Shown: one piece after another, positions 46,256 to 59,832 of the stretch
Layout: each line of letters begins with the position of its first letter
Position numbering within the stretch: position 1 is the stretch's first letter
Origin: Actinomadura sp. KC345
GTDB taxonomy: Bacteria > Actinomycetota > Actinomycetes > Streptosporangiales > Streptosporangiaceae
Length of the DNA stretch: 64,000 bases
NCBI RefSeq assembly: GCF_004348515.1
Contig: NZ_SMKH01000002.1
Location: 1 to 64,000, forward strand
Reading direction: 5' to 3'
Program-made: the position numbers and the translations under genes
Notes under the pieces: generated by a model
Database searches by the model: none
What the model was told of the DNA's origin: nothing
The model's input: the letters and a program-made list of their open reading frames with translations, nothing else

Positions 46256-46310
46256 GAGTGGCGGAACAACGAGCCGGAGGGTGCGCTTTGCCGGGCAGGG
46301 GTGGGCGGTC

Positions 46311-47771
46311 ATGACCGCCGAGGATCTCGGGCGCTACGACGTCATCGTGGTCGGCGCCGGCGTGGGCGGGCTGTGCGTGGCCATCGAGGCCGCGGCGGTC
46401 GGCGCGCGGGTGCTGGTCGCTGAGAAGACCGAGCGGGTCGGCGGGATGCTGCACATATCCAGCGGCGAGTTCAGCGGCGCGGGCACGCGCAGGCAGGCCG
46501 CGCGCGGCATCGAGGACGATCCCGAGCGCCACTGGCAGGAGGTCATGCGGCTGTCGCACGGACGGGCCGACCCCGACCTCACGTGGCGGACCGTGCGCGC
46601 CCAGGGCGAGACGGTCGACTGGCTGGACGGCCTCGGCTTCGACTTCCACCCCGAGACTCCCGGGTTGGTGCACGGGCACGAGGTCTACTCGGTGCCCCGC
46701 ACCTACTGGGGCGTGAACCAGGGCGACTCGCTGCTGCGGGTGCTGGAACGCGAGCTGGCGCGCTGGACTCCGGAGCAGGTGCGCGTGCTCACCGGCACCC
46801 GTGTCACCGGCGCCGTCCAGGACGGCGCCGGCCGGGTCGCCGGCATCACCGCGGTCCGCGACGGGACGCACGAGATCGCCGCGCACGCGGCCACCGTGGT
46901 GCTGGCCACCGGCGGATACGACGCGGAGCCCGGGCTGCGCAACCGCTTCCTGCCTCCGGGCTGCGAGGACGCGATGATCGCCTGCCTCGACCACGCCACC
47001 GGCGACGGGCTCAGGCTGGCCGAGGGACTGGGCGCCGCCGTCAGCGGCAACGGGATCTTCCTCCCCGTGATGGGGCTGATCCCCGATCCCGGACGGCCCG
47101 GCTTCGCCGTCGACTACCGGGAGGCGTTCATCGAGCTGGCGCCCGCGTACCGGACGCCCCACGAGATCTGGGTCAACCGCGCCGGCGAGCGATTCGTCCC
47201 CGAGGACGGGACGAGCCCCGAAAGGCGCGAGCGGGCCCTCCTTGAGCAGCCCGGCCTGGCGATGCACATCGTCTGGGACGAGGCGACCGCACGCGAGGCG
47301 GAACCGCTCATCAGGAACGGCGCGGGCGGCTGGACCCGCGAGCGGTTCCTGGCCGAGCAGGAGAGCGGCCGCTGGATCGTCACGGCACCGACACCGGAAG
47401 AGCTGGCGGTGCGGCTGGGCGTGGACCCCGCCGGACTGGCGGCGACCCTCCGGCGCTACAACGAGGCGGTCCGCGCCGGCCACGATCCCGACCAGGGCAG
47501 GACCACGCTGCCGATGACGATCGACTCGCCCCCGTACTACGGCATCACCTCCACCGCCGCCTCGCTGCTCAGCAGGGACGGGCTCCAGGTGACCGGCGAC
47601 CTGGCCGTGGTCGACCGCGACGGTCGTCCGATCCCGGGCCTGTACGCGGTGGGCGAGGTACTGGGCAACGACGTCTTCGCCGGAGACAACTACGTCGGCG
47701 GCATGAGCGTGACACCCGCGATGACACTGGGCCGCGCGCTCGGCCGCGCCCTGGCCGCGGAGGCTTCCTAG
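46311..47771 (+). CDS. FAD-dependent dehydrogenase (FAD_binding_2/fumarate reductase flavoprotein-like)
   Basis: 486-residue flavoprotein. Rossmann dinucleotide motif VIVVGAGVGGLCVAIEAAAVGARVLVAEK at the N-terminus, ATVVLATGGYD mid-way, and a C-terminal FAD-closing segment GLYAVGEVLGNDVFAGDNYVGGMSVTPAMTLGR. This is the family of fumarate reductase, tricarballylate dehydrogenase and 3-ketosteroid dehydrogenases. The capping domain (about 250-380) decides substrate and is not diagnostic to me. GTG 46281 would add ten residues, but ATG 46311 is adjacent to the fold. Possibly co-regulated with the VOC protein through the TTGAAACG motif. Confidence 0.83.
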   Translation: MTAEDLGRYDVIVVGAGVGGLCVAIEAAAVGARVLVAEKTERVGGMLHISSGEFSGAGTRRQAARGIEDDPERHWQEVMRLSHGRADPDLTWRTVRAQGETVDWLDGLGFDFHPETPGLVHGHEVYSVPRTYWGVNQGDSLLRVLERELARWTPEQVRVLTGTRVTGAVQDGAGRVAGITAVRDGTHEIAAHAATVVLATGGYDAEPGLRNRFLPPGCEDAMIACLDHATGDGLRLAEGLGAAVSGNGIFLPVMGLIPDPGRPGFAVDYREAFIELAPAYRTPHEIWVNRAGERFVPEDGTSPERRERALLEQPGLAMHIVWDEATAREAEPLIRNGAGGWTRERFLAEQESGRWIVTAPTPEELAVRLGVDPAGLAATLRRYNEAVRAGHDPDQGRTTLPMTIDSPPYYGITSTAASLLSRDGLQVTGDLAVVDRDGRPIPGLYAVGEVLGNDVFAGDNYVGGMSVTPAMTLGRALGRALAAEAS

Positions 47772-47908: not shown

Positions 47909-48841
47909 TCAGCGGCGGCGGTAGAACTCCAGCAGTTCCCCGTCGCGGCCCAGGAACGTCTGGACCGCGGCGGGGCCGTAGGGAGGAACGTCCAGCTCGA
48001 CCGGGTCGCAGACCGGGACCGCGCCGTGCGCGGCGAGCAGCCCCGCGGTCGCGGGCAGGTCGTCGGTCTCCAGCGAGACGGACAGGAGACCGGTGTTGGG
48101 CGGGACGGCGCGGTCGCGCTGGTCGCGGCCGGGGAAGCCGACGTACTGCGCGATCTCCACGCGGCCGTTCATCGTGCCGCCGGGCATGTACATGTTGATG
48201 TTGTGCAGCGAGGTGCCCGGCGGGAGGCGGAAGAACGCCTCCATGCCCTCGATCACCTGGTCGTACATCGGCTCGAAGCCGAGCGCCCCGTAGAAGCCCA
48301 TCGCCGCCCGCGCGTCACCGACGTGCACCGCGACCGTCTGAAGCTCGCTGGGAGAGCCGTCGTACTCGGCGAGCGGGGAGCCGTCCCGCGCTTCGAGTTC
48401 GAAGACGTCGAGGATGACGCCGTCGGGGTCGTACGACAGCGAGTCCCAGGCGGCCAGCTCCGGAGTCACCGTCCAGCGGGTGGGCTCCGACTTGGCCCTG
48501 CCTCCCGCCTCGCGTAGCCGGTGGACCGTGGCGCGGACGTCGTCCACCCGGATGTTGAGCGCGTAGTGGCCGTAGTCCTGGGCGCGCGAGTAGTCGCCCC
48601 AGATCCGGTCGCCCGGGGCATCGAAGCTCACAAGGCGCACCAGGCCGGTCGTGGCGCCCTCCGGTCCCAGCACGACCGTCCGGCCCGTCAGCCCTGCGGG
48701 CATGCGCCACGCACGCTCGATCTCCGGACCCCCGACCGCGACCTCCGGCCCGGCCACGTAGCCGAACACGTCTCGGTAGAACGCGACCGACCGCTCCAGA
48801 TCCGACACCGCCACCGTCGCCACCCGCAGCTCACTGATCAA
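47909..48841 (-). CDS. Two-domain VOC (glyoxalase/extradiol dioxygenase-like) protein
   Basis: 310-residue protein with two vicinal-oxygen-chelate modules: ELRVATVAVSDLERSVAFYRDVFGY (start of module 1) and ELQTVAVHVGDARAAMGFYGALGFEP (start of module 2 at about 165). GHYALNIRVDD and the late GELLEFY supply candidate metal ligands (His, Glu). Two-module VOC proteins include extradiol dioxygenases, HPPD-like enzymes and lyases; I cannot choose. It starts at TTG 48841 behind GAGGG. A long palindrome just upstream suggests tight regulation. Confidence 0.78.
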   Translation of the reverse strand: MISELRVATVAVSDLERSVAFYRDVFGYVAGPEVAVGGPEIERAWRMPAGLTGRTVVLGPEGATTGLVRLVSFDAPGDRIWGDYSRAQDYGHYALNIRVDDVRATVHRLREAGGRAKSEPTRWTVTPELAAWDSLSYDPDGVILDVFELEARDGSPLAEYDGSPSELQTVAVHVGDARAAMGFYGALGFEPMYDQVIEGMEAFFRLPPGTSLHNINMYMPGGTMNGRVEIAQYVGFPGRDQRDRAVPPNTGLLSVSLETDDLPATAGLLAAHGAVPVCDPVELDVPPYGPAAVQTFLGRDGELLEFYRRR

Positions 48842-51275: not shown

Positions 51276-53675
51276 ATGGACAGCACCCTCCCGCTCGCCG
51301 ATGTCCGTGTCCTGGAGTGCACCGGGGGCATCCCGGGCGCGTACTGCGGAAAGATGCTCGTCGACGCCGGTGCGCAGGTGGTGAAGGTCGAGCCCCCGGA
51401 CGGTGACCCGCTGCGCTCCTGGAGCGCGTCGGGGGATCTCGCCCTCGGGCCGGGCGAGCACGCGCCCCTGTTCCAGTTCCTCGCGGCGGGCAAGCGGTCG
51501 GTCGTCTCGGACGACGCCGGGTCGCCCGCCGTCCACGACCTGGTCCGGGGCGCGGACATCGTGATCGTCGACGGGACGGGGGGCTGGGACCTGGCGCGGA
51601 TGCGGTCCCTCTCGGCGGGTGACGAGAGCGTCGTCATCAGCATCACCCCGTTCGGCACCGAAGGCCCCTACGTCGACCAGGGGGTGCAGGCCAACGAGTT
51701 CATCCTCCAGGCGCTGTGCGGGTCGACCGGGAGCCGCGGCTGGCCCGGTGAGGAGCCGCTGCAGGCGGGCGGCCGGACCGGCGAGTGGGTGGCGGGGGCG
51801 TACGCCGCCTTCGCCGCCGCCGCCGGGATCCGCCGGCTCCGGCGGACCGGCCGGGGTGACGTCTTCGACGTCTCGATCTACGAGGCGATGATCGTCACCA
51901 TGGGCGGTCTCGGCGCCGTCGCCGCGGGCGTCCTCGGCGAGGACGCCCCGGCGGCGGCCAGGAGCCTGGAGATGCCGTCGATCGTGCCCACCGCGGACGG
52001 CCTCGTCGGCTTCTGCACGATCACCGCGCAGCAGTTCGCGGACTTCCTCGTCCTGATCGACCGCGCGGACCTCCTGGACGACGCCGACCTCGCGTCGTTC
52101 GCGGGCCGGACTCGGCGGCGCGACGAGTTCCTGGAGATGGTCCACGGCTGGGCCTCCACCCGCACCACCGCCGAGATCGTGGAGCTGGCGGCCGCGCTGC
52201 GGATCCCGGTCGCCCCGATCGGGACGCCGGAGACGCTGGCCGAGATCGACCAGTTCCGGGAACGCGGCGTCTTCGTCAAGAACGCGCTGGGCCACCTCCA
52301 GCCGCGGGTCCCGTACCGGACCAGCGCGTTCGAGGCGTCCCCGCCGGGAACGGTGCCGGACCCCGGCCGGGACGCCGGCGAGGTGCGCTGGCCGGCGCGC
52401 GAACGTCCGGCAGGCGAACGTCCGGCACGGCAGGGCACACAGCCGGACCGGCGGCCGCTGGACGGGGTGCGGGTCGCCGACTTCACCGCCTTCTGGGCCG
52501 GTCCGACCGCCACCCAGCTGCTGGCCGCGTTCGGCGCCGACGTGGTCAAGATCGAGGGGCTGCGCCGTCCCGACGGCATGCGGTTCTCCGGTGGACGGCC
52601 GCCGAGCGTCGACCAGTGGTGGGAATGGGGGTCGGTGTTCCTCGCCAGCAACAACGACAAGCGCGGGATCAGCCTGGAGCTGAGCGATCCGCGGGCGCGG
52701 GACGTGGCCCTGAAGATCATCGGTGGCAGCGACCTGGTCGTCGAGAACTTCTCGCCGCGCGTGATGGCGAACTTCGGGCTGGAGTGGCCGGACGTCGCGG
52801 CGGCCAACCCCCGGGCGTGCATGGTGCGGATGCCCGCGTTCGGGCTCGACGGCCCCTGGCGCGACCGGGTCGGGTTCGCCCAGACGATGGAGCAGGCGAG
52901 CGGCATGGCCTGGATGACCGGGCACCCGGACGGCCCGCCGATCATCCCGCGCGGCGTCTGCGACCCGGTCGCCGGCATCCACGCGGCCTTCGCGGCCGTG
53001 GTCGCCCTGGAGAGCCGCGATGCCACCGGCCAGGGGGTGCACATCGAGGGGACCATGGTCGAGGCCGCGCTCAACGTGGCGGCCGAGGCGCTACTGGAGC
53101 ACTCCGTCCGCGGCGTCACCCTGCGCCGCGACGGCAACCGCGGGCCGGGCGCCTCGCCCCAGGGCGTCTACCGGACGGCCGGAGCCGACGAATGGGCGGC
53201 GATCGCCGTGACGGACGACGCGCAATGGCCCGCGCTCGCCGCCGTCATCGGCCGCCCCGACCTGGCGGACGACCGCGACCTGGCGACGCGGTCCGGCCGC
53301 CGGGCCCGCGCGGCGGAGATCGACACGGCCATCGCGTCCTGGGCGGCGGGCGTCGACGTCGAGGCCGCCGTCGCGGCGCTCCGCGCGGCGGGCGTCCCGT
53401 CGGCCAGGGTGACGCCGCCGAGCGACCTGCTGGCCGACGAGCATCTGCGCGCTCGCGGGTTCTGGGAGAACGTCCGGCATCCGGTGGCGGGCGAGTTCCG
53501 CTCGACGGGGCTGCCGTTCGGGTCCCGGACCGTGGCCTCCGGGTGGGTACGGTCCGGGGCGCCGCTCTACGGCCAGCACAACCACGAGGTCCTGGCGGAG
53601 ATCGGCCTGGGCCGGAGCGAGATCGAGGCGCTGGAGGAGGACGGGGTCATCGGCTCCCGGCCCGCCGGGCTCTGA
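51276..53675 (+). CDS. Tandem-fused class III CoA-transferase (CaiB/BaiF)
   Basis: 799-residue protein made of two complete family III CoA-transferase domains (about 8-385 and 400-790), joined by an Arg/Pro-rich linker. The C-terminal half has DFTAFWAGPTATQLLAAFGA and catalytic D563 (GVCDPVAGIHAAF). At the equivalent place the N-terminal half has E170 (GRTGEWVAGAYAAF) rather than Asp. Class III enzymes form interlocked dimers moving CoA between acids, so this may be a built-in heterodimer with one active site. Likely activates the pathway's starting acid. GAGAGG lies before ATG 51276. Confidence 0.87.
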   Translation: MDSTLPLADVRVLECTGGIPGAYCGKMLVDAGAQVVKVEPPDGDPLRSWSASGDLALGPGEHAPLFQFLAAGKRSVVSDDAGSPAVHDLVRGADIVIVDGTGGWDLARMRSLSAGDESVVISITPFGTEGPYVDQGVQANEFILQALCGSTGSRGWPGEEPLQAGGRTGEWVAGAYAAFAAAAGIRRLRRTGRGDVFDVSIYEAMIVTMGGLGAVAAGVLGEDAPAAARSLEMPSIVPTADGLVGFCTITAQQFADFLVLIDRADLLDDADLASFAGRTRRRDEFLEMVHGWASTRTTAEIVELAAALRIPVAPIGTPETLAEIDQFRERGVFVKNALGHLQPRVPYRTSAFEASPPGTVPDPGRDAGEVRWPARERPAGERPARQGTQPDRRPLDGVRVADFTAFWAGPTATQLLAAFGADVVKIEGLRRPDGMRFSGGRPPSVDQWWEWGSVFLASNNDKRGISLELSDPRARDVALKIIGGSDLVVENFSPRVMANFGLEWPDVAAANPRACMVRMPAFGLDGPWRDRVGFAQTMEQASGMAWMTGHPDGPPIIPRGVCDPVAGIHAAFAAVVALESRDATGQGVHIEGTMVEAALNVAAEALLEHSVRGVTLRRDGNRGPGASPQGVYRTAGADEWAAIAVTDDAQWPALAAVIGRPDLADDRDLATRSGRRARAAEIDTAIASWAAGVDVEAAVAALRAAGVPSARVTPPSDLLADEHLRARGFWENVRHPVAGEFRSTGLPFGSRTVASGWVRSGAPLYGQHNHEVLAEIGLGRSEIEALEEDGVIGSRPAGL

Positions 53676-53744
53676 CGGGCCTGCGGCGTCCCGGCGAGGA
53701 CTACGATCGCTGGCAGGACGACGGCGATCGGCGGGAATGACGAC

Positions 53745-54455
53745 GTGGGACTCGACGAGGCATCGCGGGAGGCGGACGAGGCCGCCGCGCGGGAGGGCGC
53801 CGCCGATCCCGGCTACCCGGATCTGCCGACGACGGCGTACCTCGTCCTCGGCATGCTGATCGTCAACGACGAGTCGCTCACCGCGGGCGAGATCAAGGTG
53901 CGCTCCCAGTACACGGTCGGCCACTTCTACTGGGCCCCGGCCGTCAGCCACATCCGGCGGGAGCTGACACGCCTGATCGAGCACGACATGGCGGCCGAGC
54001 GCACGATCCACGTCGGCAAGCGCAAGATGACGGTCTACGAGTCGACCCCGCGGGGCGAGCGTGCGCTGCGCGCGTGGGCCGAGGCCCTTCCGGGGGACGA
54101 GCCGGTGATGATCAAGCATCCGCTGATGCTCAAGATCTGGCTCGCGGGGGACACCGAACCGGCCGTGGTCCTGGAGGCCATCGACCGCTACCTGGAGACC
54201 GTCCAGAAGTCGATCGACGAGCTGATGTGGGCGCAGGGCAGGAGCCGGGAACTCGGGCTGCTGGAGGAGATGAGGTCGAGGTACCCGCTCCAGGTGGCGA
54301 CCTACACCCTGCGCTCGCTGTACGCCGAGATGGCCAACGTCCGGCAGCTCCGCGACGAGATCGAATGGAACCTCGGAGACGCCTACCAGCGGCACGCCGA
54401 CCACCCGAAGACGGCCATACGCCGCAGGGTGCGGCCGGAGGCCGGGGACGACTGA
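53745..54455 (+). CDS. PadR-family regulator
   Basis: 236-residue PadR regulator. Winged helix about 28-100: TTAYLVLGMLIVNDESLTAG and YWAPAVSHIRRELTRLIEHDM, a wing with RKMTVYESTPRGERALRAW; then a C-terminal coiled-coil-rich dimer domain (Vir-like, about 125-205: EAIDRYLETVQKSIDELMWAQ). PadR proteins classically sense phenolic acids and repress their catabolic genes. GTG 53745, 69 bases after the CoA-transferase stop. Probably controls both this set and the divergent ligase/thiolase genes. Confidence 0.85.
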   Translation: MGLDEASREADEAAAREGAADPGYPDLPTTAYLVLGMLIVNDESLTAGEIKVRSQYTVGHFYWAPAVSHIRRELTRLIEHDMAAERTIHVGKRKMTVYESTPRGERALRAWAEALPGDEPVMIKHPLMLKIWLAGDTEPAVVLEAIDRYLETVQKSIDELMWAQGRSRELGLLEEMRSRYPLQVATYTLRSLYAEMANVRQLRDEIEWNLGDAYQRHADHPKTAIRRRVRPEAGDD

Positions 54456-54488
54456 CCTCCGGCCGCGTTCCGGCCGCCGAGGGGCGGG

Positions 54489-54803
54489 TCAGTCGCTGGC
54501 GGGGAGCGGCTTGGCGTCCTTGACCACGAGCGGGGTGTCGCCGTCCGACAGCGAGCCCGCACCCGGGCTGGTCACCAGGACTTCGAAGGAATCGTCGTCC
54601 GGGTGGGTGTAGCGCTTGCCCAGCAAGGAGCCCTCGTCGAACGGACTGTGCGGTTCCCCCACGGTCGCGCGGTCGGCCGACAGGGACATCGGAACTCCGC
54701 CGCACCGCAGGTCCAGGCCCGGCGGCCCCGGCCGGACCACGATGACGCCGGTGCCGCACACCTGGCTGTGCAGGCGTGTCCCGGGCTTGATGATGTCGCT
54801 CAA
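54489..54803 (-). CDS. Small conserved-type protein of unknown function
   Basis: 104-residue protein with two cysteines in SQVCGTGVIVVRPGPPGLDLRCGGVPM, which could bind a metal or form a redox pair, followed by an acidic tail. No signal peptide. I have a sense that similar short proteins accompany acyl-CoA ligase genes in actinomycetes, but I cannot name a family. TTG 54803 has AGGAGA about seven bases upstream and lies 18 bases after the ligase stop on the same strand, so they are co-transcribed. Confidence 0.65.
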   Translation of the reverse strand: MSDIIKPGTRLHSQVCGTGVIVVRPGPPGLDLRCGGVPMSLSADRATVGEPHSPFDEGSLLGKRYTHPDDDSFEVLVTSPGAGSLSDGDTPLVVKDAKPLPASD

Positions 54804-54821
54804 CTGCTTCTCCTGTCTCGA

Positions 54822-56348
54822 TCAGGCGTGTGTGGGGGAGTGGAGCCCGGCGACGATCTCTCGGCGCAGGAGCTTGCCCGTCTGGGTGTAGGGGAGCTCT
54901 TCCCTGAACACGACCTCGTCAGGCGTGCGGGAGCCGCGCAGCCGCGACCGGACGAAGGCGCGCAGCTCCGCGGCGAGGTCGTCACCGGCCCCTCCGTCGG
55001 GGACCACGACCGCCACCAGCCGTTCCCCCCAATGGGGATCGGCCGCTCCGACCACGGCGGCCTCACGGACCAGGTCATGGGCGAGCAGGACGTCCTCGAT
55101 CTCGGCCGGCGCGATGTTCTCCCCGCCGCGGATGATCGTGTCGTCCGCGCGTCCCTCCACGTAGAGGTAGCCGTCCCCGTCGAGGCGCGCGAGGTCGCGG
55201 GTCGGGAACCAGCCGCCGGCGTCCAGGACCGAGCCGAGCCCGGTGTACTCGCCGGAGACCTGCGGCCCCCGGACCCACAGCTCGCCGACCGTGCCGCCGG
55301 GCACCGCGCGGCCGTCCTCGTCCCGGATCTCCGCCTCGACGCCGGGGACGACGCGGCCGACCGAGGCGAGGCGGTGGGTCTCCCCCGAGGCCATCGCCTG
55401 GCGGTGGTCCTCGGGGCCGAGGACCGCGATCGTCGAGCTGGTCTCGGTGAGGCCGTAGGCGTTGACGAAACCGGTCGCGGGGAACGCCTCCAGCGCCCGC
55501 GCGAGCACCGGGAGCGGCATCCGCGCACCTCCGTAGGCGAGCGTCGAGAGACCGGGGCAGTCCGCCGGGCGGTCCCCGAGATGCTCGACGATGCGGGCCA
55601 GCATGGTCGGCACCACCATCGCGTGGCTCACCCGCCGGTCGCGGACGACGCCGAGCCACCCCTCCGGGGTGAAGTCGGTCAGGTAGGCGGTCTTGCGGCC
55701 GGAGTAGGCGTTGGTGAGCACGGCCCCGATCCCGGCGATGTGGTACGGCGGGACGCTGAGCAGCGCGCACTCGTCCTCCGCCGCCGCCGCGCCGAACTCG
55801 ACGGTTCCGAGGACGTAGGAGAGCAGGTTCGAGTGCCGCAGGACGGCGCACTTCGGCGCCGCCGTCGTGCCGCTCGTGAACAGCAGGAGCGCGGGGCTCT
55901 CCTCGGACACCTCCGCGGGCCCCGCGTCTGACGCCGCCTCCGACGCGTCCCCGGCTCCCGGCGCCGCGACGATGTCGAACCACTCGCGGGTCGTCATCGA
56001 CGCGACCACGTTGCCGGGCGGTCCGACGCGCTGGGACGGGTCGGTGACGAGCACGGGCGCGTCCAGGCGGGCGATCAGTTCGCGCAGGGCAGGCTCGGAC
56101 AGGCGGTAGTTGAGCGGAGCGAACGGGACTCCGGCGCCGGCCGCGGCGAACAGCAGCGCGGGAACCGCGGGGGAGTTGGCGCCGACGAACGCCAGCGTGC
56201 GGGCGCCCCGGCGTCTCAGCAGCGCGCTTCCGGCGTCGGCCAGCCCGGCGAGGCCGCCGAAGGTCGTCGGCTCGCCGGCGGCCGGCAGCAGGGCGGCGCG
56301 GTCGGCGCCCGCCTGCGCGGCCATGTCCAGGATCAGGCGGATGGTCAT
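54822..56348 (-). CDS. AMP-forming acyl-CoA ligase
   Basis: 508-residue ANL-superfamily enzyme. A3/P-loop LLFTSGTTAAPK (about 155-166), A5 NAYGLTETSS, A7 GWFPTRDLARLD, hinge GRADDTIIRGGENIAPAEIE and A10 lysine in PYTQTGKLLRRE are all intact. It converts a carboxylic acid, ATP and CoA to acyl-CoA; family precedents include fatty, benzoic and cyclohexane acids. ATG 56348 has GGGAG six bases upstream. Divergent from the thiolase operon; the shared 145-bp region carries promoters and repeats of CTAATAG. Confidence 0.9.
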   Translation of the reverse strand: MTIRLILDMAAQAGADRAALLPAAGEPTTFGGLAGLADAGSALLRRRGARTLAFVGANSPAVPALLFAAAGAGVPFAPLNYRLSEPALRELIARLDAPVLVTDPSQRVGPPGNVVASMTTREWFDIVAAPGAGDASEAASDAGPAEVSEESPALLLFTSGTTAAPKCAVLRHSNLLSYVLGTVEFGAAAAEDECALLSVPPYHIAGIGAVLTNAYSGRKTAYLTDFTPEGWLGVVRDRRVSHAMVVPTMLARIVEHLGDRPADCPGLSTLAYGGARMPLPVLARALEAFPATGFVNAYGLTETSSTIAVLGPEDHRQAMASGETHRLASVGRVVPGVEAEIRDEDGRAVPGGTVGELWVRGPQVSGEYTGLGSVLDAGGWFPTRDLARLDGDGYLYVEGRADDTIIRGGENIAPAEIEDVLLAHDLVREAAVVGAADPHWGERLVAVVVPDGGAGDDLAAELRAFVRSRLRGSRTPDEVVFREELPYTQTGKLLRREIVAGLHSPTHA

Positions 56349-56383
56349 GCGAACTCCCGGGCTCGTCCCACCAGCTTTCTTAA

Positions 56384-56392
56384 ACTAATAGT
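56384..56392. promoter_or_regulatory. ACTAATAGT motif in divergent promoter
   Basis: ACTAATAGT lies 36 bases before the ligase start; CTAATAGT recurs at 56474-56481 in the thiolase promoter and inversely at 49621-49628. On the minus strand it may supply the ligase -10 (ACTATT) or a regulator half site. Confidence 0.35.
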
Positions 56393-56449
56393 CCCTCATG
56401 ATGGTCACACAGCGATCTGCAAAGCGCCAGTTCTCCGGACAATCGACCC

Positions 56450-56478
56450 TTGACAGTCCGGAAATCGCTAAGTCTAAT
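56450..56478 (+). promoter_or_regulatory. Strong promoter of thiolase operon, with shared 13-mer
   Basis: TTGACA (56450-56455) and TCTAAT (56473-56478) lie exactly 17 bases apart, a near-consensus vegetative promoter. The 13-mer TCGCTAAGTCTAA (56465-56477) overlaps its -10 box, so a repressor bound there would block transcription. Confidence 0.7.
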
Positions 56479-56532
56479 AGTGCGTAGCCGTTAGTGATCT
56501 ACGGCACATGGCTCGACCTTCAAGGAGACCGA

Positions 56533-57696
56533 GTGAGGGCATCGAACCGCCGGGCCGTCATCGCCGGGGTGCACAACACCCGCCAGGCGCGCCGCCTGGA
56601 GGAGGAGACCTCCCGCAGCCTCATGGTCAAGGCGCTCCTCGGCGCGCTGGACGACGCCGGGCTGGACCTGTCCGACGTCGACGGGATCAGCGCCATGGAC
56701 GACAGCACGTCCCTGATCTACGACCTCGGTGTCGGGCCGGCCTGGCAGGGCCACGACTTCGGCGCCGGCATGTTCGCCGAGGCCGCGTCCGCCGTCGAGA
56801 AGGGCTACGCCGACGTCGTCGTGCTGGTCTCCGCGCAGGCCGGCAGCTACACCGACCGCGCGGCGACCGCGCCGTGGACCCGCCCGGAGAACGAGTTCGT
56901 CGCCCCCTGGGGCATGTTCACCGCCGCCGAGTTCGCGCTGATCGCGCGCCGCCACATGGAGGTCTTCGGGACGACGCGGGAGCAGATGTCGCGGGTCGCG
57001 GCCACGATCCGCAACAACGGGGACCGCAACCCGGAGGCCGTCTACCACGGGCGGGGCCCCTTCAAGCCCGAGGACATCACCGCCTCCCGCCCCATCGCCG
57101 AGCCCTTCCACCTCCTCGACTGCGCCATGACGTCGGAGGGCGGCTGCGCGGCCGTCGTCACCACGGCCGAGCGCGCCCGGTCCCTGCGCCGCGACCCGGT
57201 CCACGTGCTCGGCGCCGGGGTCGACTTCTTCGGCCCGTCCTACCAGTACCCGCCGAGCTGGGACCTGCGCGGGCGGCGCGACGCGCCGTCCAACGGGCAG
57301 GCCGGACGCCGGGCCGGCGACCTCGCGTTCCGCCAGGCCGGCATCGGCCGCGACGACGTGGACGTCCTGGAGCTCTACGACCCCTTCTCGTTCGAAATCA
57401 TCCGCCAGCTGGAGGCCCTGCGGTTCTGCCCCGAGGGGGAGGGCGGGCCGTTCGTCGAGGACGGCCGCATCGAGCCGGGCGGCAGCCACCCGATCACCAC
57501 CGACGGCGGCCTGATGTCGTTCAGCCACGCGGGCGCGAACCCCCAGATGATGCAGCGCGTGATCCGCGGGGTCCAGCAGGTGCGCGGCGACGCCGGGCCC
57601 CTCCAGGTCCCGGACGCGCACGTCGCCCTGTGCACCACCGGCGGAGCCGGCGCCCTGTTCACCGGCGTGATCCTCCTGGGAGACGAGCTGCCATGA
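56533..57696 (+). CDS. Thiolase-like protein (lipid-transfer/aldolase type)
   Basis: 387-residue thiolase-superfamily protein. HDFGAGMFAEAASAVEKGYADVVVLVSAQ and LLDCAMTSEGGCAAVVTT are core helices; GGLMSFSHAGANPQMMQ holds the conserved His, and ALCTTGGAGAL the late Cys. The usual N-terminal nucleophilic Cys position reads DDSTS, without Cys. That points to an Ltp2-like retro-aldolase rather than a true thiolase; those act with a DUF35 partner, which follows here. GTG 56533 has AAGGAG five bases upstream; the frame is open to 56494. Its stop overlaps the DUF35 start. Confidence 0.82.
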   Translation: MRASNRRAVIAGVHNTRQARRLEEETSRSLMVKALLGALDDAGLDLSDVDGISAMDDSTSLIYDLGVGPAWQGHDFGAGMFAEAASAVEKGYADVVVLVSAQAGSYTDRAATAPWTRPENEFVAPWGMFTAAEFALIARRHMEVFGTTREQMSRVAATIRNNGDRNPEAVYHGRGPFKPEDITASRPIAEPFHLLDCAMTSEGGCAAVVTTAERARSLRRDPVHVLGAGVDFFGPSYQYPPSWDLRGRRDAPSNGQAGRRAGDLAFRQAGIGRDDVDVLELYDPFSFEIIRQLEALRFCPEGEGGPFVEDGRIEPGGSHPITTDGGLMSFSHAGANPQMMQRVIRGVQQVRGDAGPLQVPDAHVALCTTGGAGALFTGVILLGDELP

Positions 57697-58112
57697 CGAC
57701 CCCGCTGCGGGCCCAGACCCGCGACCTTCCGCACGCCGTCCCGAGCGAGGTGACCCGCCCCTTCTGGGACGGGTGCGCGCGGGGAGAGCTGCTGTTCCAG
57801 CGCTGCGAGCGGTGCGAGGCCATCACCTTCCCGCCTGGCGAGCACTGCCGCGGCTGCCTGGCCCGGGGCCAGGTGTGGGAGGCGAGCGCCGGGCGCGGCG
57901 TCCTCTACAGCTGGACCGTCGTCCACCGGCCGGTCACGCCCGCCTTCGACCCGCCCTACGCCGCCGCGATCGTGACCCTCGACGAGGGCTACCAGATGCT
58001 GACCAACATCGTCGACGCCGCGCCGGACGACCTGCGCGCCGAGCTGCCGGTCCAGGTGTCGTTCCGCCGGACCGGAAACGATCTCTGGCTCCCCTACTTC
58101 GTCCCCGCCTGA
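57693..58112 (+). CDS. DUF35 OB-fold/zinc-ribbon protein, thiolase partner
   Basis: 139-residue protein: rubredoxin-like zinc ribbon C38-x2-C41, C52-x2-C55 (FQRCERCEAITFPPGEHC), then an OB-fold (about 62-135; GRGVLYSWTVVHRPVTPAFD, PYAAAIVTLDEG). Such proteins form complexes with thiolase-like enzymes and help present acyl-CoA, as in the Ltp2-ChsH2 aldolase of steroid side-chain loss. ATG 57693 lies within the thiolase stop (ATGA), fitting a fixed stoichiometric complex. Confidence 0.9.
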   Translation: MTTPLRAQTRDLPHAVPSEVTRPFWDGCARGELLFQRCERCEAITFPPGEHCRGCLARGQVWEASAGRGVLYSWTVVHRPVTPAFDPPYAAAIVTLDEGYQMLTNIVDAAPDDLRAELPVQVSFRRTGNDLWLPYFVPA

Positions 58113-58142
58113 CCCGGGAAAGACCGAGCGAAGGATTCCCCC

Positions 58143-59489
58143 ATGCACAAGGACGATCTGATCCTCATCAGCGTCGACGACCACATCGCCGAGCCCGCCG
58201 ACATGTTCGACGCCCACGTCCCGGACCGGTACCGGGACCGCGCGCCGCGCGTCATCATCGAACCGGACGGCGTCCAGCAGTGGTACTACGGCGATCTCCG
58301 GGGCCGGAACATGGGGCTGAACGCGGTCGCCGGGAAGCCGCGCGAGATGTACAACATCGACGCCAGCAGCTACGACGAGATGCGTCCGGGCTGCTTCAAC
58401 GTCGACGAGCGGGTCAGGGACATGAACGCCGGCGGCCAGCTCGCTGGGCTGAACTTCCCGAACTGGACCGGGTTCTCCGGCCAGGTCCTCAACCAGGGCC
58501 CGGACCGCGAGACCAACCTGGTGATGATCAAGGCCTACAACGACTGGCACATCGACGAGTGGTGCGGCGCGTACCCCGGCCGGTTCATCCCCTGCGGGAT
58601 CCTTCCGCTGTTCGACGTCCAGGAGGCCGCCAAGGAGATCCGGCGCCTGGCGGCCAAGGGGTGCCACGCGGTGACGTTCTCGGAGAACCCCGAGGCGCTG
58701 AACATGCCCAGCATCCACACCAGGTACTGGTATCCGCTGTTCGAGGCGGCCAGCGAATGCAAGACCGTCCTGTGCACGCACATCGGGTCGTCCTCGCGGG
58801 CGCCGATGTTCTCCAGCGACGCCCCGGCGAGCGTGGCCATGACCGGGTCCTCGATCATGAGCGCGTACACGCTGCTCGAACTGATGTGGGCCGAGTTCTG
58901 GGGCGACTTCCCCGACCTGAGGTTCTCGCTGACCGAGGGCGACATCGGCTGGATCCCGTACTTCCTCTGGCGGGCCGAGCACGTGCAGAACCGGCACTCG
59001 GGCTGGACGAAGGCGACGTTCCCGCGCGGCTACGACGGCCCGTCCGACGTGTTCAGGAAGCACATCCACACGTGCTTCATCGCCGACAAGGTCGGCCCGA
59101 AGGTCCTCGACTGGTTCGACACCGACATGGTCTGCTGGGAGTCGGACTACCCGCACTCCGACAGCAACTGGCCGTTCGCGCCCGAGGACGTCATCGAGAC
59201 CCTCGGCCATCTCGACGACGCGCTGATCGACAAGATCACCCACGAGAACGCGATGGCGGCGTACTCCTTCGACCCGTTCGCGCACGTCCCGAAGGAGAAC
59301 GCCCGCGCCGGGCACCTGCGCTCCCAGGCGACGGACGTCGACGTCGTCACGCACGTGGGACGCGAGGCGAGCCAGCGCGACCTGGACGCGTGGGCGCGGA
59401 TGACGAGCTTCGCCACCGAGCACCCGGCGAAGGTCACCGCGAACGCCGACATCTCCGGGCGCGCCGAGAAGCTCGGCGAGAACCTCTGA
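58143..59489 (+). CDS. Amidohydrolase_2-family metal-dependent hydrolase/decarboxylase
   Basis: 448-residue TIM-barrel protein of the amidohydrolase 2 family (ACMSD/gamma-resorcylate decarboxylase relatives). N-terminal metal motif SVDDHIAEPADMF has D-x-H-like residues; CTHIGSSS supplies a strand-5 His and CWESDYPHSDSNWP the catalytic Asp with His. Family members hydrolyse cyclic esters or decarboxylate aromatic or heterocyclic acids. It follows the DUF35 gene by 30 bases with AAGGA before ATG 58143. The exact reaction is not predictable. Confidence 0.85.
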   Translation: MHKDDLILISVDDHIAEPADMFDAHVPDRYRDRAPRVIIEPDGVQQWYYGDLRGRNMGLNAVAGKPREMYNIDASSYDEMRPGCFNVDERVRDMNAGGQLAGLNFPNWTGFSGQVLNQGPDRETNLVMIKAYNDWHIDEWCGAYPGRFIPCGILPLFDVQEAAKEIRRLAAKGCHAVTFSENPEALNMPSIHTRYWYPLFEAASECKTVLCTHIGSSSRAPMFSSDAPASVAMTGSSIMSAYTLLELMWAEFWGDFPDLRFSLTEGDIGWIPYFLWRAEHVQNRHSGWTKATFPRGYDGPSDVFRKHIHTCFIADKVGPKVLDWFDTDMVCWESDYPHSDSNWPFAPEDVIETLGHLDDALIDKITHENAMAAYSFDPFAHVPKENARAGHLRSQATDVDVVTHVGREASQRDLDAWARMTSFATEHPAKVTANADISGRAEKLGENL

Positions 59490-59511
59490 GACCGCGGGGA
59501 GCAGGTTGACG

Positions 59512-59832
59512 ATGGGCATGAGCCTGTGCGTGCCGCCGCGGCCGGGTGAGCTCTGCGCCCCCATCCGGCTGCGGCTGCCCGGCGAGCACTCGACGCAGCA
59601 GCTGACGTCCCGGCACCGCGTGACCGGGATCGAGGCGGACGGCGGGACGGTCGTCGTCCGGGTGGAGATCACCGATCCGCAGACGTCCCGCCCGATCGAC
59701 GTCCGCTTCGACGTGGTCCCGCCGGGCGGGCGGCCGGCCGCGCGGTCCGTCCTGCTGGGCACGGCCGACCTGCCCACCGGCCCGGCCGAGGTGTACGGCA
59801 CCTACCTCGGCGTCGTCGCCGACGAGAACTAG
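59512..59832 (+). CDS. Small beta-rich protein of unknown function
   Basis: 106-residue cytosolic protein of alternating beta strands (HRVTGIEADGGTVVVRVEIT, then RPIDVRFDVVPPGG) and a Gly-rich end. No catalytic motif is evident. Last gene of the thiolase-DUF35-amidohydrolase operon, 22 bases after the amidohydrolase stop, so it may be a subunit or accessory of one of these enzymes. ATG 59512 follows GGGGAGCAGG; ATG 59518 is an alternative. Family not recognised. Confidence 0.6.
   Translation: MGMSLCVPPRPGELCAPIRLRLPGEHSTQQLTSRHRVTGIEADGGTVVVRVEITDPQTSRPIDVRFDVVPPGGRPAARSVLLGTADLPTGPAEVYGTYLGVVADEN

Follow-up and report, generated by a model that had tools for sequence, protein, structure and literature searches.

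Does a CoA-transferase that carries its domain twice in one chain, with glutamate in place of the catalytic aspartate in the first copy, work with one active site or with two? The question is raised by an ORF at 51276..53675 on the forward strand of the window, by which we mean the whole 64,000-nucleotide stretch of Actinomadura DNA that was analyzed. The ORF encodes a fused two-domain class III CoA-transferase of 799 amino acids (all coordinates given below for parts of this gene refer to the same strand).

Domains and catalytic position of the fused chain

The reading frame contains no internal stop, and its GC content at the three codon positions (0.75/0.55/0.95) matches that of coding sequence in the Actinomadura genome. 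PF02515 (CoA_transf_3) was found twice in the chain, with scores of 208.9 and 330.7 bits (cut-off, 23.3). The N-terminal domain, in which the catalytic Asp is replaced, lies at 51294..52373 and covers positions 1-365 of the 366 in the model, and the C-terminal domain, which has the catalytic residues, lies at 52458..53582 and covers positions 1-366; both are therefore full-length domains, as the original prediction had held. Between them is a linker at about residues 373-391 (52392..52448), for which pLDDT falls below 50 at residues 378-388. As both domains match PF02515, the protein is a member of the class III (type III, Frc/CaiB) CoA-transferases. A search of the 799-aa protein against NCBIfam matched seven models, none of them at its cut-off, the highest being those for formyl-CoA, succinate-glutarate, and mesaconate CoA-transferases. 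The fused CoA-transferase adds a member to an already known kind of enzyme, and the find is real and largely ordinary. The Actinomadura genome contains 22 stretches matching PF02515, two of which belong to a second two-domain CoA-transferase (L002, 1498-3747; 35% identity) with Glu in its first half as well. This second gene appears by eye to be followed directly by an AMP-ligase frame, and the two are a possible cassette of the thioacid type (the type to which PtmU4, discussed below, belongs).

An alignment was made of both halves, three E. coli proteins (FRC, YfdE, and CaiB), and partial BbsE and BbsF sequences. E170 (codon 51783..51785) and D563 (codon 52962..52964) share the column of FRC D169, and alignments of the fused set gave the same placement as that with FRC, YfdE, and CaiB. 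The catalytic Asp at FRC position 169 is thus present in the second half (D563) and absent from the first (E170). Alignment with formyl-CoA transferase thereby confirmed that these two residues occupy the position of the covalent-intermediate Asp. The outcome named beforehand as refuting, in which the N-terminal half would place a different Asp in that column, was not seen in the FRC/YfdE/CaiB/BbsE/BbsF alignment. A frameshift or an assembly joint as the origin of the fusion was also rejected, given that both closely and distantly related homologues have the fusion too; in the 86%-identical relative (G002), for example, the gene is one ORF with both E and D.

Number of working sites

Fused ORFs were gathered from close relatives, a scan of named genomes (best 80 loci listed), and 396 phylum genomes, using models from 13 fused sequences. 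Among the matches listed, this gave 90 ORFs of at least 600 amino acids, the window's own included; paralogues and near-copies are among these rows, and a few rows change residue between alignments (e.g., L085, with F in one and S in others). The second-half Asp is present in all 90. The first-half position holds Glu in 49 and Asp in 10, followed by Tyr (7), Ala (5), Gln (5), Ser (4), Gly (3), His (3), Phe (2), Val (1), and Leu (1), so that 31 of the 90 have no carboxylate there. Since an N-type domain had to precede a C-type domain for an ORF to be selected, proteins with the reversed order would be lost from this set. A control search with a generic domain model and no order rule (best 80 loci listed) returned 57 fused pairs, with second-half Asp in 57 of 57 and with first halves distributed as E 24, D 7, S 5, Q 5, Y 4, A 4, G 3, H 3, F 1, and one gap. 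Among the best 80 loci listed there were also 25 adjacent separate pairs: 17 with non-Asp followed by Asp (2 of these gap-first), 6 with Asp in both members, and 2 with Asp followed by a gap. As Asp occurs in both members of 7 of the 57 fused and 6 of the 25 separate pairs listed, an Asp-less first half is common, though not universal.

A quick tree of the listed loci, built without bootstrap, places the window among 27 rows that form an all-fused clade (SH-aLRT 100). Across this tree, fused and split forms alternate: the fused or split state changes at least 10 times, with five changes forced by well supported branches, and the first-half state (E, D, or other) changes at least 16 times. At three loci (L106, 10010-13835; L081; L087), two CoA-transferase pairs follow one another, one split and one fused in the case of L081 and L087, which hints at local duplication.

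The two halves also differ in the residues expected to hold CoA. In a mesaconyl-CoA transferase from Roseiflexus, CoA is described as being held by N100, F101, R104, and R75 on the Rossmann domain that bears Asp165 (extracts of PMC9196870). Matched by spacing, the second-half counterparts are N491, F492, R495, and K462/R463. By analogy with that enzyme (PMC9196870), residues 490-495 (ENFSPR, 52743..52760) would form the CoA-binding motif, whose aligned counterpart in the first half is IVDGTGGW (residues 97-104, 51564..51587). The motif Asn is found in 67 of 69 second halves versus 5 of 69 first halves, and the next residue is Phe or Tyr in 65 of 69 second halves versus Phe in 6 of 69 first halves. 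Among the 90 listed fused ORFs, N491 is kept in 88, Phe or Tyr at 492 in 86, and R495 in 56. The ENF motif is absent from E. coli CaiB in our alignment; hence, activity cannot be judged by this motif alone.

By both phmmer and Foldseek, the top PDB match of the whole chain was BbsEF (PDB 9fn0 and 9fol), the succinyl-CoA:(R)-benzylsuccinate CoA-transferase of an anaerobic toluene pathway; it also ranked first for the second half. Judged by sequence, BbsEF resembles the window protein in combining one Asp-bearing with one Asp-less domain, but these are two separate proteins rather than a single ORF, and BbsE has Tyr (Tyr171, aligned to E170) where the window protein has Glu. BbsF D178 is aligned to D563, and the entry title of 9fol refers to a 'D178-CoA adduct'. 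In VIA-align comparisons, the second half was tied between YfdW (Z 30.1) and BbsF (Z 29.3), with lower rmsd and higher identity for BbsF (1.9 Å and 36% over 400 aligned residues). For the first half, 4ed9 ranked first and BbsE second among PDB entries by sequence. Its model gave VIA Z scores of 25.1-29.5 at rmsd 5.7-7.5 against whole CoA-transferase chains, with SUGCT, 4ed9, and BbsE tied at Z 28.6-29.5 (for BbsE, rmsd 6.2 over 351 residues at 27%).

Because the second-half Asp is constant, the first half lacks the CoA motif, and the chain matches BbsEF, we favor one live site over two sites for two acids: in this two-domain class III CoA-transferase, only the second half would be catalytically active, and the first would serve as silent partner and lid (estimated probability about 0.8). 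The 799-aa chain would fold on itself as an interlocked dimer, and the Rossmann domain of the second half would bind CoA through K462, N491, F492, and perhaps R495. D563 would then attack the donor acyl-CoA to give an acyl-aspartyl anhydride, which would pass into an aspartyl-CoA thioester to be resolved by the acceptor acid. The catalytically silent first half would complete the interlocked fold, its small domain (about residues 226-241) probably crossing over to cover the D563 site, and E170 would lie in a dead pocket, most likely with a structural role.

The cross-over is modeled on simpler relatives. Frc/YfdW and YfdE have the domain fold and the Asp169/Asp173 position of the window protein and an active site shared by two chains, but each is a homodimer whose two sites are equal. 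YfdE is described as having its Asp and the loop opposite it on different subunits (extracts of PMC3720670). Carried over to the fused chain, this topology would place D563 under a small-domain loop of the first half (RSLEMPSI; residues 226-241, 51951..51998) and E170 under the GN loop of the second half (residues 616-632, 53121..53171). The second-half GN loop is well kept (Gly in 66 and Asn in 58 of 69) although the topology points it at the dead pocket, and this counts against the one-site model. AlphaFold2 predicted the whole chain with confidence (pLDDT 88.0, pTM 0.93), as would be expected of an intramolecular interlocked dimer. The N-terminal half alone scored lower (pLDDT 77.6, pTM 0.68), and pLDDT for residues 151-160 and 161-170 rose from 43 and 62 in that half alone to 87 and 90 with the chain complete, although the underlying alignments were unequal (20 rows for the half and 13 for the whole chain), so that the comparison is no more than suggestive. 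Domain-wise conservation was considered as proof of the lid cross-over and rejected: the fit is weak in the window's clade, where the differences are small (C-large 0.532, C-small 0.452, N-small 0.472, N-large 0.459), and there is none in the outer families (N-small 0.336, N-large 0.362).

The glutamate of the first half

Among the matches listed, the window's clade comprises 49 rows with at least 38% identity (32 once thinned at 75% identity), and the outer families comprise 41 rows (37 after the same thinning). The E170 position holds Glu in 26, Asp in 5, and Tyr in 1 of the 32 thinned clade rows listed (rank 55 of 360 first-half columns), and Glu in 5, Asp in 3, and other residues in 29 of the 37 thinned outer rows listed (rank 254 of 357). 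Given a clade-wide Glu or Asp (31 of the 32 thinned rows listed), Glu looks selected in the window's clade, and neutral drift at this position was rejected there. In the outer families, drift is kept as the reading: 8 of the 37 thinned rows listed there have Glu or Asp.

The same near-constant carboxylate in the listed clade rows could be taken as a sign that E170 is an alternative nucleophile and the chain has two working sites accepting two different acids, as the original prediction proposed. The first half also retains the fold and K73 (in 80 of the 90 listed fused ORFs). Nonetheless, this first half has neither the Asp nor the Asn of the CoA motif, the Asn-Phe pair is absent from most first halves, and relatives vary at position 170, with 31 of the 90 listed fused ORFs lacking a carboxylate there. 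PDB entry 1vgr is, according to its title, the Asp169-to-Glu mutant of formyl-CoA transferase, and we confirmed the residue letter; this mutant is reportedly inactive. In PtmU4, which likewise has two domains, the changes D430A, D430E, and D430N are described as lowering activity 125-400-fold (extracts of PMC6006322). By analogy with this related enzyme, in which the effect is directly evidenced, Glu is a poor replacement for Asp at the catalytic position, even if Family I CoA-transferases are described as employing Glu (extracts of PMC9813914). The part of the prediction that stands is that the fused chain permanently combines a normal with an altered catalytic position, which the alignment bears out; that the altered site is a second working one was not supported, and the acceptance of two different acids by this means appears very improbable.

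For the single-site enzyme, the cheapest explanation of the conserved E170 is a buried structural role. A candidate salt-bridge partner is hinted at by residue 154, which is Arg in 50 of 59 acid-bearing rows versus about 6% of the 31 others among the matches listed, an association confounded by ancestry. First-half F142 and Q145 are likewise enriched in acid-bearing rows, with the same confounding. It is conceivable, albeit unlikely, that E170, R154, F142, and Q145 together with the second-half GN loop form a non-transferring second ligand site, which might gate D563 by sensing or holding substrate or product.

Gene neighborhood and candidate route

Neighborhoods were compared at the 34 loci with matches, over about 10 kb or less on each side. 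In the window, positions 51276-59832 form a conserved module of the fused CoA-transferase with a PadR-like regulator, an Ltp2-like thiolase, a ChsH2-like DUF35 protein, a PtmU3/DitZ-like amidohydrolase, and a small orphan protein designated P0002. In the 86%-identical relative, the companions are again an MFS protein (88%), PadR (86%), ligase (83%), thiolase (93%), DUF35 (87%), amidohydrolase (95%), and P0002 (91%). A Mycobacterium locus (L034) and loci in three genomes of the same class (L142-L144) carry the set in another order than the window, running amidohydrolase, fused CoA-transferase, P0002, thiolase, DUF35, and PadR. Within about 10 kb or less on each side, these four loci had no match to the MFS protein or to two proteins encoded upstream of the gene in the window, a VOC-fold protein (47909-48841, reverse strand) and a FAD-dependent dehydrogenase (46281-47771, forward strand), both from the scan of window proteins. 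In an Acidimicrobiaceae locus (L036), a 65%-identical amidohydrolase adjoins the CoA-transferase on the opposite strand. The module was absent from most other clade loci in the 34-locus comparison.

PDB matches for the thiolase-like protein (56494-57696, forward strand) were 4u4e and 6ok1 chain A, and that for the DUF35 protein was 6ok1 chain B, which is ChsH2. We take this Ltp2/ChsH2 pair to be a retro-aldolase. In the thiolase-like protein, the stretch where the nucleophile is expected, GPAWQGHDFGAG, contains no Cys (by eye), and the protein may consequently be an aldolase rather than a thiolase. Judged by sequence match, the 'amidohydrolase' (58143-59489, forward strand) is a putative diiron hydroxylase, closest to DitZ (E value 4.6e-91) and then to PtmU3 (6.4e-24). 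All three proteins share D.H, HIG, E, and DYPH stretches, which hold the six metal ligands in diiron oxygenases of this fold; PtmU3 is described as a diiron hydroxylase of a diterpenoid-CoA (extracts of PMC7782822 and PMC10127204). P0002 (108 amino acids; 59506-59832, forward strand) had no match in Pfam or NCBIfam and none in a plasmid collection. Copies 50-55% identical to it adjoin the fused CoA-transferase in the Mycobacterium locus and in L142-L144, and it was matched in 3 of 296 phylum genomes, its own included, with one match at merely E 8e-4.

An AMP-ligase is also encoded in the window (54822-56348, from the scan of window proteins), beyond the PadR-like gene and a predicted 104-aa ORF. 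Its presence would suit an enzyme like PtmU4, which is in the two-domain family and, together with a ligase partner, produces a thiocarboxylic acid (extracts of PMC6006322); the fused protein would in that case move the acyl group from acyl-CoA to a sulfur carrier, with the nearby ligase providing activation. In the same source, 160 of 175 thioacid-group genes lie at most two genes from a PtmA3-like synthetase. We consider such a thioacid former quite improbable here: the ligase is matched at only 24-26% identity in L034 and L142-L144, which otherwise carry the module, and P0002 ends in ADEN rather than the Gly-Gly of a sulfur carrier. Compared with PtmU4 as described, the window gene also differs in the module around it, where a thiolase/DUF35 pair and a PtmU3/DitZ-like protein are found.

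Another enzyme with two CaiB domains in one chain is the DMSP CoA-transferase/lyase DddD (extracts of PMC7174347), which couples transfer to cleavage (extracts of PMC8163506). A similar two-step enzyme, acting on the CoA ester after transfer, is the reading to which we give least credence for the window protein. DddD, compared here by description, adds cleavage to what the one-site model contains, and extracts of PMC6006322 place it outside the two-domain clade of PtmU4. The neighbor described for dddD is a transporter of the betaine/carnitine/choline type (extracts of PMC7174347), whereas the sole transporter among ten window proteins, one of which is the CoA-transferase itself, is of the MFS type.

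The conserved module suggests an actinobacterial route that can be tested: CoA activation or exchange, diiron acyl-CoA hydroxylation, and then retro-aldol cleavage, acting on a branched or polycyclic acid. In its one-sided loss of the catalytic Asp, the fused family resembles BbsEF-type pairs and can be seen as their one-chain counterpart. Should the lid cross over as proposed, the live site would be covered by the silent half, and it is in this half, which annotation would label inactive, that substrate specificity would need to be sought.
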